DNA of 64,000 nucleotides from Natrinema pallidum DSM 3751 (GTDB taxonomy: Archaea > Halobacteriota > Halobacteria > Halobacteriales > Natrialbaceae): NCBI RefSeq assembly GCF_000337615.1, contig NZ_AOII01000072.1, forward strand, positions 1 through 64,000, written 5' to 3'. The translations under genes and the position numbers were made by a program. Of the stretch, positions 13,396-36,294 are shown piece by piece. The notes beneath the pieces are model-generated. The model was not told the origin of the DNA. It searched no databases and saw only the letters and a program-made list of their open reading frames with translations. Positions within the stretch are counted from its first letter, which is position 1. Every line of letters begins with the position of its first letter.

Positions 13396-13992
13396 ATGGC
13401 CGGTACGCGTCAGTATCCCGACGAACCGTCCGGCCCCTTCCCCTCGCCCCCGACGACGGTCGAGGATCGAGACGGACGGTCGATCGAGGTTCGGACAGCC
13501 GAGTCGTTCACCGGTGAGACGCTCGACGACGTCGTCGGGATGTACACCGCGTTCGATCCGACCGACCGCGCACAGGGGATCCCGCCGACCGGCGAGGAAC
13601 GGATCCGGACCTGGCTCGAGACGATCGGTGACGACAGCGTCAACGTCGTCGCGCGCCACGACGGGGACGCGATCGCCCACGCGATGCTCGTTCCCGATAC
13701 CGACGATCCGGCCGCGGTCGAACACGCATCCGACATCGAGTGGGAACTCGCGATCTTCGTCCTGCAGGCCTACCAGCGGGCCGGGATCGGGACGGTCCTG
13801 CTGAAGAACCTCCTGGGCCACGCGATCGATGTCGGCATCGAGCGAGTGTGGCTGACGGTCGAACGCTGGAACAACCCGGCGATCGCGCTCTACGAGCGGG
13901 TCGGGTTCGAGTCGACCGGCACCGAGAGCTTCGAACAGGAGATGGCGATCCGCCTCGAGAGCGACGATAACGGCGTGACCGACGGCGGTTGA
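13396..13992 (+). CDS. GNAT family N-acetyltransferase
   Basis: A 198-aa protein with a GNAT domain in residues 60-185. The acetyl-CoA binding turn is seen as LQAYQRAGIGTVLLKNLL (R/Q-x-x-G-x-G/A), and the last conserved element is WNNPAIALYERVGFE, the usual N-x-x-A-x-x-x-Y-x-x-x-G-F. It would transfer an acetyl group to a small molecule or protein amine. It is coupled to the UspA gene, a frequent haloarchaeal pairing, and its acceptor is unknown. Confidence 0.9.
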   Translation: MAGTRQYPDEPSGPFPSPPTTVEDRDGRSIEVRTAESFTGETLDDVVGMYTAFDPTDRAQGIPPTGEERIRTWLETIGDDSVNVVARHDGDAIAHAMLVPDTDDPAAVEHASDIEWELAIFVLQAYQRAGIGTVLLKNLLGHAIDVGIERVWLTVERWNNPAIALYERVGFESTGTESFEQEMAIRLESDDNGVTDGG

Positions 13993-14134
13993 CCGCGTCG
14001 GACTCCCATACCAATTGTGTAAATACAGTTTATTTATTTAACGTAATGAGAGAAACAATATGCGATAATATGGCGGCGAACTCAGTAAATATTCTGATGT
14101 GGTTGGCACTCGGTGCTGAATAGAGAGGATATGT

Positions 14135-14425
14135 TCAGCAATGGATTCTACTTTGAGGGGTAGTACGGGTGCAGACGAAGCCTCCCAACGGATTCCGGGA
14201 GACCGGCATCCTTCTGGAAGTGCCGAACAACTGCCCCTTGATCCCGAGGTACCACCATTCGTTCAGTATCATCACCATCTCAGGACCCGACGAGTTGTAG
14301 ATGGTAGAACCAGATATTTGCCCAAGATTCGTCGCGCGTTCGAGTTTGTTAGCGGCCTCTTCGCCCTGATCGTCGTCAGGTACGTTGGTCACCCCATTCG
14401 CCGTCATCGTCGAAAGGCGACCCAT
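14135..14425 (-). CDS. Hypothetical protein of the 14-kb cassette
   Basis: A 96-aa frame starting six bases after the stop of the wHTH gene on the same strand. The N-terminal half is acidic and Asn-rich (NVPDDDQGEEAANKLERATN), followed by SGPEMVMILNEWWYLGIKGQL. A second ATG lies at 14407. Base composition is lower in G/C than the core genome. I do not recognise a family; operon-like spacing is the main reason to believe it. Confidence 0.5.
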   Translation of the reverse strand: MGRLSTMTANGVTNVPDDDQGEEAANKLERATNLGQISGSTIYNSSGPEMVMILNEWWYLGIKGQLFGTSRRMPVSRNPLGGFVCTRTTPQSRIHC

Positions 14426-14431
14426 CGTCCG

Positions 14432-14662
14432 TCATTCCTCAGCAGACCAGACTAGAGAATTCCCGACTTTCTTCTTTGAGACACGTCCGTTATCCAGAAG
14501 ACGTCGAAGCCGATAGTCCGCACTCTGGCGCGCAATCCCGAGTTCGTCGGCAACTTCTTTTGTGCCCGCGGGCTCGTGTTTTCGAACCGCATTAAATACT
14601 TCCTCATCGGTGTGTTCGGGCTCAAATCGCCCGTCTTCGTTTCTTTCCCGGTCTTCATCCAT
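14432..14662 (-). CDS. Winged helix-turn-helix DNA-binding protein
   Basis: A 76-aa protein whose residues 18-72 form a wHTH: TDEEVFNAVRKHEPAGTKEVADELGIARQSADYRLRRLLDNGRVSKKKVGNSLVW, with recognition helix RQSADYRLRRLL and a short wing. Proteins of this size and sequence style are typical of haloarchaeal proviruses and integrative elements, where they control the element's own genes. It is divergent from the structured-RNA transcript starting near 14751, which it is placed to regulate. Confidence 0.8.
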   Translation of the reverse strand: MDEDRERNEDGRFEPEHTDEEVFNAVRKHEPAGTKEVADELGIARQSADYRLRRLLDNGRVSKKKVGNSLVWSAEE

Positions 14663-14750
14663 TAGTCTCTAGGTCGCAAGGTTCTCCCATCAACCTTCTG
14701 CTCAAAGGCAGATGGCACAACACTTAATGCGGTATGCTACATAGCAGAAG

Positions 14751-14871
14751 GTGCGAAGAAAGTCCGGCCTCTCGGGGCGTGACCGTCATAGGAAACGCCT
14801 GGGTGTTGGAGCCATCCAGGCCGGGCTTCTGAGGCCAGAAACCCATGAAGATATCCGCCCTCGCCGGACTT
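14751..14871 (+). ncRNA. Candidate structured RNA / leader with RNase P-like segment
   Basis: A TATA-like CACTTAATG at 14721-14729 predicts a start near 14751. The RNA can form an outer stem (14760-14768 with 14863-14871, nine pairs), a GGCGT/ACGCC hairpin (14776-14780 with 14795-14799) or alternatively GCCTGG/CCAGGC (14797-14802 with 14816-14821), and a stem 14823-14831 with 14836-14844. The order GAAGAAAGUCCGG, then AAACGCCUGGG 28 bases later, then GAAACCCA mirrors the P4-P9 part of bacterial RNase P RNA as I remember it. The 3' half of RNase P RNA is not visible. It overlaps the next gene's start. Confidence 0.4.
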
Positions 14872-15009
14872 CAACCCTCCGGCACGACGGTCGAATCGAC
14901 TACTGAAGATAACTGTGACGAGTGCGCGAAGTTTGAGGACGGCTTCGCGTGCGCTGATCGCTCATCTTCGGCCGCAAGGACTTCTCGGGTGACTTCTGAT
15001 GAGCGGTGA
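14845..15009 (+). CDS. 54-aa Cys-containing mini-protein of the cassette
   Basis: ATG at 14845 opens a 54-residue frame containing CDECAKFEDGFACAD, a CxxC pair plus a third Cys nine residues later, like half a zinc finger. It overlaps the next gene by eleven bases (its TGA is at 15007-15009, the next ATG at 14999), a sign of translational coupling. Its start codon lies inside the predicted RNA structure, so folding could control translation. Similar small Cys proteins are common in haloarchaeal mobile elements. Function unknown. Confidence 0.55.
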   Translation: MKISALAGLQPSGTTVESTTEDNCDECAKFEDGFACADRSSSAARTSRVTSDER

Positions 15010-15376
15010 GGACGTCGATCCCGAGAAGGCTGAATCCCTCGCTTGTGACTGCCTGGTGGAATATTTCCGGCACCCCGCGGAGTCCACCCGGAGCGATGTC
15101 GCCCGACTCGCCGAACTGACTTCGTCCATCAAGGTCGCCCTGGAGCGCGGCGAGACACCCGAAAAGCACAACATCGAAGAGGCTCGCTTCTACATCCGGC
15201 AGGTCGAAAAGCGGCTTGACGAAGTGACCGCGCTGTTCGGCTGGAACCCGTGGGATACGGGCGCGACATGGAGCGAACTCACCGACGAACAGCAGGCCGA
15301 AATCGAAGAACGTGACCGCCAGCGACTCGGTGACGACATCGACCCGGAGACGGGCATCAAGGAGGAGTGCGAATGA
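14999..15376 (+). CDS. Hypothetical acidic helical protein of the cassette
   Basis: A 125-aa protein, strongly helical and charged: LACDCLVEYFRHPAESTRSDVARLAELTSSIKVALERGETPEKHNIEEARFYIRQVEKRLDEVTALFG. The long amphipathic stretch suggests a coiled coil or helical bundle. It overlaps both neighbours (start inside the upstream gene, stop overlapping the next ATG as ATGA), so the three are one operon. I do not recognise the family, but this arrangement of overlapping small genes is typical of provirus or integrative-element cargo. Confidence 0.7.
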   Translation: MSGEDVDPEKAESLACDCLVEYFRHPAESTRSDVARLAELTSSIKVALERGETPEKHNIEEARFYIRQVEKRLDEVTALFGWNPWDTGATWSELTDEQQAEIEERDRQRLGDDIDPETGIKEECE

Positions 15377-15535
15377 TGTACGACAACGTCCGCGTGACGG
15401 CCCGTATCGTCCGCACCGACGACGGCAGAACTACACGAGTATCGCGTCGGTGGCGTTTCGTACCTCTCGGCTGAGGGGCCGCGAGACGCGCTGAACACCC
15501 ACGACATCCACGGCCAGGTGGTCGCCTACGAATAA
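15373..15535 (+). pseudogene. Small cassette gene with a one-base frameshift
   Basis: ATG at 15373 overlaps the upstream stop. The first frame reads MMYDNVRVTARIVRTDDG and then becomes Arg-rich and ends early. Moving to another frame at about 15430 restores a natural sequence, ELHEYRVGGVSYLSAEGPRD, ending HGQVVAYE and TAA at 15533-15535. Total length is 163 bases, one more than a multiple of three, so a single extra base explains it. It may be decay, a sequencing error or programmed shifting; no slippery run is evident. Family unknown. Confidence 0.6.
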
Positions 15536-15564
15536 CGAAATCGTATTTGCAACAACTGAGACGG

Positions 15565-16023
15565 TTAGACCGAGAGGACGGGTTGGCTCGCGTAGGAGAG
15601 GACGTACTCGGCGGCTTTCTCGAGGACCTCCGCTTCGGTTTCGGTAACCGGTTCCCGGGGGAGGACGATGAAGTCGGCGTCGATGTCGTCGGCGGTGTCG
15701 AGCACGACGTTGCCCGGATGACGCGTCTTCCGCGTTTGCGAGAAGCCCTCGTCGACGGAGGTCGCAAGCGGTACGTCCGCGTCAGCGGCGATGTCGCCGA
15801 TATCATCGAAAAACCCCTGCGTGTTCTCCGCGACGGCGGTCTCGTCGACCGTACCGGCGTCCAGTCCCCGGACGACGCCGCGTCCGAGGACGAACAGCGC
15901 GTGGACGGAGGCGTCGTAGCGGTCGGCGACGGCGACGGCGTATTCGACGGCGGTGGCTGACTCGTCGCTCCCGTCGACCGGTGCGAGAACGGTGTCGACG
16001 GTAAACGGCTCGCTGGCGTCCAT
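15565..16023 (-). CDS. Universal stress protein family (UspA) protein
   Basis: A 152-aa UspA-domain protein: VDTVLAPVDGSDESATAVEYAVAVADRYDASVHALFV at the N-terminus and FIVLPREPVTETEAEVLEKAAEYVLSYASQPVLSV at the end. The ATP-binding glycine loop is absent, so it belongs to the non-ATP-binding branch. I chose the ATG at 16023, because the upstream extension is not family-like. Its 3' end lies only 29 bases from the end of the mobile cassette. It is divergent from a second UspA gene at 16140. Confidence 0.85.
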   Translation of the reverse strand: MDASEPFTVDTVLAPVDGSDESATAVEYAVAVADRYDASVHALFVLGRGVVRGLDAGTVDETAVAENTQGFFDDIGDIAADADVPLATSVDEGFSQTRKTRHPGNVVLDTADDIDADFIVLPREPVTETEAEVLEKAAEYVLSYASQPVLSV

Positions 16024-36078: not shown

Positions 36079-36134
36079 GCCGCCTGAGACCCCAGCGGAT
36101 GGCGGGCGGACCTGGTCGTCTCCGACGACCCGTG

Positions 36135-36185
36135 GTTTCGATTGTGGGGTCGTGTTTCGATCATGGAGTCGGGTTTCGATCGTGA
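36135..36185 (+). repeat. Three 19-bp tandem repeats at the edge of the origin
   Basis: The word GTTTCGAT begins at 36135, 36154 and 36173, exactly 19 bases apart, with the rest of each unit (NRTGRRGTCG) also similar. Nineteen bases is not quite two helical turns. It lies 110 bases outside the first origin box and could be a protein-binding array for replication control or for the gene ending at 36078. Confidence 0.6.
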
Positions 36186-36294
36186 TTACGTGAGCATCGA
36201 TGGGGCCGTCTGGTTCGTCGCGGCGCGTCGATCACTGGTCCCGATCGACCGATGCAGACGCTACGAGTCGTGGCCGACGGGACGGAACGTAACA

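Follow-up and report, generated by a model that had tools for sequence, protein, structure and literature searches.

A putative bistable translational leader RNA on mobile cassettes of haloarchaea

A small operon on a mobile cassette of Natrinema pallidum DSM 3751 is preceded by a compact structured RNA, and this leader probably works as a bistable translational switch of the operon. Three of its strands matter for this reading. Strand B, the outer 3′ strand of the closing stem P1, has two complementary partners, the 5′ end of the RNA (strand A) and the nucleotides just ahead of the AUG (strand C). The leader lies in a stretch of 64,000 nucleotides, hereafter called the window, and was compared with its homologues in other haloarchaeal genomes, plasmids and viruses.

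The leader RNA and its three-way junction

The leader in the window is made of the following parts, all on the forward strand:

14752..14844, +, structured leader RNA, the predicted whole 5′ UTR, about 93 nt, directly abutting the ATG at 14845
14758..14770, +, 5′ strand of P1 (strand A); compensatory changes in 13 of 13 P1 pairs (99 copies)
14771..14774, +, J1/2, CUCG, the main conserved unpaired element of the junction
14775..14780, +, 5′ strand of P2, GGGCGU (99-copy alignment)
14795..14800, +, 3′ strand of P2, ACGCCU (99-copy alignment)
14801..14805, +, 5′ strand of P3, GGGUG; 99.4% of cells paired, compensatory changes in 5 of 5 pairs
14813..14817, +, 3′ strand of P3, CAUCC (99-copy alignment)
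14818..14830, +, 3′ strand of P1, the outer half of which is the shared strand B
14823..14831, +, 5′ strand of P4, GGGCUUCUG (strand B); cognate C-B pairing z -12.6
14836..14844, +, 3′ strand of P4, CAGAAACCC (strand C), directly abutting the AUG

A query of 151 bases brought clear homologues in related genomes, and one of 1.16 kb led to Halobacterium plasmids and to the virus HJTV-4. Eleven homologous leaders formed the seed alignment, from which the covariance model R1 was built. RNAalifold analysis of these 11 leaders gives a three-way junction with compensatory changes, in which the long closing stem P1 holds P2 (GGGCGU/ACGCCC) and P3 (GCGUG/CACGC). The same type of junction is adopted by 95 of 98 copies folded singly, with a J1/2 joint of usually 3-5 nt (most often 4), J2/3 and J3/1 being usually 0. 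The first-pass annotation had proposed to look for compensatory changes among homologues of the cassette, and such changes are indeed found in 23 of the 24 consensus pairs of a 99-copy alignment. There, 92.3% of the cells are paired, versus 80.5% after shuffling and at most about 50% when slid by one column. An alignment fitted by a covariance model leans toward the modelled structure (P1, P3), with which the independent single folds agree; the score of P2 is not circular, because the alignment model held P1, P3 and an alternative hairpin, and not P2. An alternative set of stems (a hairpin of inner P1 and the P2 5′ strand, with an extended P3) is 92% pairable, and was rejected, its covariation of.199 against.181 reflecting almost only base composition.

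The window leader scores 102.7 bits with R1 and 82.2 bits (E 5e-18) with R2, a refined model which includes the three-way junction (filters off, within the window). On this comparative evidence, the structured RNA family is real: the folded domain is conserved and backed by covariation, as is expected of a riboswitch. The unpaired core is moderately conserved, with 0.6-1.4 bits at the J1/2 positions and a P2 loop ranging from a few to about 14 nt.

The modelled element terminates at the ATG in 98 of the 99 copies, and in every seed sequence too. For HJTV-4 gp35, HJTV-4 ORF48 and the N. occultus plasmid, the predicted AUG is also where the annotated gene begins. This location, in the predicted 5′ UTR and immediately upstream of the start codon, is the one that a cis-regulatory leader would occupy. 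An independent and stable trans-acting RNA which merely precedes ORFs could equally be compact, strongly structured and multicopy; it is nevertheless very improbable, given the nearly constant end of the element at the ATG and the covariation of its last strand with B.

Two stems compete for one strand

Because all copies are related, the two pairings were evaluated by comparing each copy's own strands with strands borrowed from other copies. The A-B pairing reaches -11.3 kcal/mol between cognate strands versus -7.4 between non-cognate ones (z -12.3), and the C-B pairing -10.3 versus -7.2 kcal/mol (z -12.6); the A-C control gives z +1.0. In a strict set of 11 copies with strongly different B strands, the values are z -4.2 for A-B and z -4.6 for C-B, with controls near zero (C versus the P2-P3 interior, z 0.0). 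The column-wise covariation score of P4 is.293, versus.160 when shuffled and at most.142 when slid. Examples of such pairings among the copies are GGGUUC/GAACCC, GGGUUGUU/AACAACCC, GGUCUGU/ACAGACC and GGUUUGU/ACAAACC. Both P1 and P4 can also be formed in four divergent leaders outside the alignment, including the one on pNRC200 of H. salinarum NRC-1. In divergent leaders such as that of VNG_RS11530 (pNRC200), GAAGC replaces AACCC ahead of the AUG and GCUUC replaces GGGUU in B. Since A-B and C-B both covary through the shared strand, two mutually exclusive folds are under selection, and such a pair of stems would correspond to the expression platform of a riboswitch.

In the first fold, strand A at the 5′ end of the transcript would pair with B as P1 and close the three-way junction P1-P2-P3. 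About 12 nt ahead of the AUG, and the AUG itself, would be left single-stranded, which presumably corresponds to the ON state. In the second fold, B would leave A and pair with C immediately upstream of the AUG. The resulting P4 is a hairpin of 7-10 bp at 0-2 nt from the start codon, on the site of the small ribosomal subunit, and would presumably be the OFF state. The only ground for this assignment of ON and OFF is how close P4 lies to the AUG. The earlier suggestion of a riboregulator masking the start codon at 14845 holds in essence, the stems concerned being P1 and P4 instead of the nine-pair stem then proposed.

The energy gap between the two folds has a median of 2.8 of about 45 kcal/mol and stays within 5 in 61 of 95 copies, as would be expected of a bistable switch, these energies referring to 37 °C and 1 M NaCl and not to molar KCl. 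The P1 fold is favoured in 75 of the 95 copies, so that P4 might be the minor form without a trigger. The balance would be set by an outside factor; a ligand, a protein or an intact 5′ end may be what shifts it. Lower temperature tips the folds slightly toward P4 (41/95 at 20 °C, 7/95 at 55 °C), an effect too small to build temperature sensing on.

Under another reading, the leader would be a fixed insulating hairpin of the kind known from bacterial insertion sequences, damping the translation of the cassette genes and sensing no signal. The RNA does lie on mobile DNA, and a stem beside the start codon would be enough for damping, but such a device needs only P4. It leaves unexplained how A and C have jointly kept their complementarity to B through large sequence change, and is an unlikely account of the family.

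Promoter, divergent regulator and downstream genes

The neighbourhood of the leader comprises:

14432..14662, -, divergent winged-helix (HTH_24/FaeA-like) regulator, 76 aa; HTH_24 22.4 bits over cut-off
14693..14702, +, left arm ACCTTCTGCT of a perfect 10-bp inverted repeat, probably operator-like
14723..14728, +, TATA-like box CTTAAT
14743..14752, +, right arm AGCAGAAGGT of the inverted repeat; the TATA box lies between the two arms
14845..15009, +, first ORF of the operon, 54 aa, beginning MKISALAGLQPSGTT...; no family match above cut-off
14999..15376, +, second ORF, 125 aa; no family

The TATA-like box and the start codon had been correctly placed in the first-pass annotation. Across the copies, the aligned T/A peak lies at -45 to -41 from the junction, and an A-rich (BRE-like) stretch precedes it. 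The usual archaeal spacing between TATA box and start puts the beginning of the transcript at the 5′ end of P1, probably near 14753 in the window. This spacing and the TATA position together imply that the RNA is the whole 5′ UTR.

The perfect 10-bp inverted repeat suggests a candidate operator. A homologous divergent winged-helix gene stands beside about 60 of 98 copies, its start lying mostly within about 130 nt upstream. The cassette promoter is probably repressed by this divergent protein at the inverted-repeat operators on both sides of the TATA box. The leader would add a translational gate, set by any factor that makes the three-way junction more stable or opens it.

Short operons encoding proteins mostly without known function follow the leader copies. 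In HJTV-4 (gp35) and in the H. salinarum plasmid, a small ORF homologous to the first ORF of the operon begins at the equivalent position. Searches against Pfam, NCBIfam, PADLOC and PHROGs reveal little about function: among 86 first ORFs, 10 encode SWIM zinc-finger proteins and 15 belong to a single viral family without a name. The SWIM zinc finger is the sole named domain that recurs downstream, and CxxC motifs occur in other ORFs. Among the first-ORF proteins of the 98 copies, which are otherwise unrelated, a short N-terminus of the type M(S/T)xN....QE is frequent, which looks as if the leader and the first codons were one exchangeable module.

These genes bear on what might tip the balance between P1 and P4. 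The junction could be bound, and this balance set, by an RNA-binding protein of the host or by one of the operon's own products, many of which are small zinc-finger proteins; we regard this possibility as tentative. The SWIM proteins and the CxxC motifs would suit it, and the helical shape is more conserved than the loops, as in protein-bound RNAs; on the other hand, a single RNA family precedes unrelated proteins, which argues against self-regulation by one protein type as a general rule. A small-molecule or ion riboswitch, with the three-way junction as aptamer and P4 as expression platform, would share the architecture of translational riboswitches (structured domain, shared strand, start-codon stem), and a single shared signal would be in keeping with many copies standing ahead of unrelated genes. 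Its unpaired nucleotides are however only moderately conserved, unlike known aptamer cores, no binding pocket is obvious and the genes downstream are not metabolic, all of which makes it rather improbable. For the bistable switch favoured here, the better conservation of helices than of loops leans slightly toward a protein or a purely structural trigger.

The mobile cassette

The cassette and its ends are as follows:

14012..15560, no strand, mobile cassette, 1.55 kb, between GNAT and Usp genes; the flanks are adjacent in relatives
14012..14045, +, left imperfect terminal inverted repeat, CAATTG-TGTAAATAC..., matching the right end when that is read as reverse complement
15527..15558, -, right imperfect terminal inverted repeat, pairing with the left end

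The Usp and GNAT flanks reported at first pass are confirmed. The cassette itself is a genuine insertion, its site being empty in congeners. Relatives align 13700-14011 and 15561-15900 as neighbours (for example G051:C1:397187-397498 and 397497-397836), and in a relative the sequence of the unoccupied site is directly visible. The score of the terminal repeats is equalled in 0 of 500 shuffles. No clean target duplication is seen at the cassette ends, and no transposase family match was obtained among the tested ORFs of the window cassette.

In an H. salinarum plasmid and in H. hubeiense, the winged-helix gene is directly followed by a DDE transposase, which suggests that the cassettes are mobilised by HTH-transposase elements. 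The one in the window may be related to these elements but non-autonomous. In HJTV-4 and pHG4, an HNH endonuclease gene is found close downstream of the HTH gene. A DDE transposase gene of about 610 aa lies directly behind the winged-helix gene at L002:3105-5225 and L342:265-2285.

Distribution of the family

All strong relatives of the window sequence lie within Halobacteria. R1 matches 226 of 391 Halobacteria genomes (E <= 0.1), often several times per genome and sometimes in tandem, and R2 matches 220 of the 391, in 69 of 86 genera (E <= 0.001); copies share descent, and their counts are not counts of independent events. In a phylum-wide sample of 295 genomes, every one of the 24 matches falls in the window's own order. 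The N. pallidum genome holds a second clear copy (C16:833-932), plus several weak, divergent ones.

Copies are carried by mobile DNA: two by HJTV-4 and others by plasmids, among them one of 12.9 kb in N. occultus, one of 6.95 kb in H. jeotgali and larger ones. The second HJTV-4 copy is weak (L323:17129-17226, HJTV-4 36128-36225) and lies directly 5′ of ORF48, with a divergent MarR-like remnant upstream. On viral contigs, a tighter DNA pattern pointed to six contigs, of which only the HJTV-4-like L056 has the RNA, the other five being without model match; nearly all matches of a loose DNA pattern on viral and genome contigs were due to chance. In phiCh1, ChaoS9 and NVIV-1, the surroundings of the HTH homologues lack the RNA.

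At L231 (G365:C108), L232 and L233 (G301) and L234 (G280), three or four leader-ORF units follow one another in tandem, all oriented alike; each leader has its own promoter, and the whole resembles a cassette array. The window's own genome also contains a divergent sub-family (L326, L327, L329, L330 and L331, at C67:50855 and 51337, C92:5670, C45:60608 and C89:48412). It shows a conserved ATGCTTGCATAC...GGGATATAAACG (or ATGATTCCG...) stretch 3′ of the RNA, containing a second TATA-like box, and a small CPxCG zinc-finger ORF downstream in the two loci checked. This sub-family is possibly chromosomal instead of mobile. A divergent leader copy, together with a divergent winged-helix gene, is present in the model strain H. 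salinarum NRC-1 (L341:2250-2560, pNRC200, VNG_RS11530 and VNG_RS13550).

A broader reading would see in these leaders a widespread natural class of haloarchaeal riboswitches multiplied by mobile elements, the three-way junction reading a ligand or cell-state signal and the strand exchange at the start codon deciding on the translation of accessory genes. We consider it doubtful.

Relation to RNase P RNA and other Rfam families

The first-pass annotation had compared the RNA with RNase P RNA because of three short strings, GAAGAAAGTCCGG (14755-14767), AAACGCCTGGG (14793-14803) and GAAACCCA (14838-14845), all of which are present. Its nine-pair stem, AAGUCCGGC (14760-14768) with GCCGGACUU (14863-14871), also exists and belongs to the minimum free energy fold of 14721-14871, which has -59.6 kcal/mol (z -2.72) and is matched in stability by 2 of 200 shuffles, but it is not a conserved structure. 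Pairing of its 5′ strand with the first 45 nt of the ORF gives z -1.7 in a set of 94 copies, among which the window copy is the most extreme. As closing stem it was discarded in favour of the conserved P1 (14758-14770 with 14818-14830).

The covariance search proposed at first pass gave no match to the Rfam RNase P models, either at the gathering score or at E up to 10, and these models likewise had no match at 20 loci with further copies. Where the window reads 'GAAAGUCCGG', its relatives read GGAAGCCCGG, GAGACAGACCGG and similar, and the CR-I string GAAAGUCC is found in the window copy and not in relatives. A full archaeal RNase P RNA is encoded elsewhere in the genome (C8:204-675, 111 bits). 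The likeness to archaeal RNase P RNA (RF00373) is limited to short strings, and is a coincidence of the three. Among the copies, that of the window alone has strings resembling RNase P RNA. The reading as an RNase P RNA that was captured or reduced has practically no credibility left.

No Rfam 15 family exceeds its gathering threshold for the leader; only neighbouring rRNA and tRNA were found. The best sub-threshold match, DUF3085 RNA (RF02959; 17.4 bits at 14800-14883, E 1.7, gathering score 40.6), was rejected; it spans the ORF start and uses none of P1, P2 and P3. The proposal of a new class of non-coding RNA is borne out by a large covarying family absent from Rfam 15.

Comparison with known systems

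According to a published statement, structured leaders are not typical of haloarchaea (PMC4983044), and the fluoride riboswitch of Thermococcus kodakarensis was, as of 2021, the only natural archaeal riboswitch determined experimentally (PMC8241225). In the light of both statements, a switch-like leader family in haloarchaea is unexpected. No description of this family was found in the open-access literature, subscription papers and preprints being mostly outside the scope of the search. The RNA family and its three-way-junction strand exchange appear to be new, the start-codon RNA switch as a kind being already known. If the proposed switch is true, structured translational control would be common in haloarchaea, mainly on mobile and accessory genes, and would bear on how plasmids, viruses and islands silence or switch on their accessory genes. 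The leader is testable with existing genetics, and the divergent copy of H. salinarum NRC-1 is convenient for such experiments.

With translational riboswitches, including that for fluoride in T. kodakarensis, the leader shares a structured 5′ position and a strand common to the folded domain and to the translation-start stem. It differs from the fluoride riboswitch in fold and sequence, in its restriction to Halobacteria (in this sample), in having no known ligand, and in being multicopy on mobile elements before non-metabolic genes.

In the leader hairpins of bacterial insertion sequences such as IS10 and IS200, a stem occludes the translation start on a mobile element; in the haloarchaeal leader, by contrast, the occluding strand has a covarying competitor, with which the 5′ end of the transcript forms a three-way junction. 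In hok/Sok-type mRNA leaders, two mutually exclusive metastable folds control access to the start codon of plasmid-borne genes. The haloarchaeal RNA differs from these by its junction at the 5′ end and its unrelated sequence, neither an antisense RNA nor a 3′-end processing element being seen.
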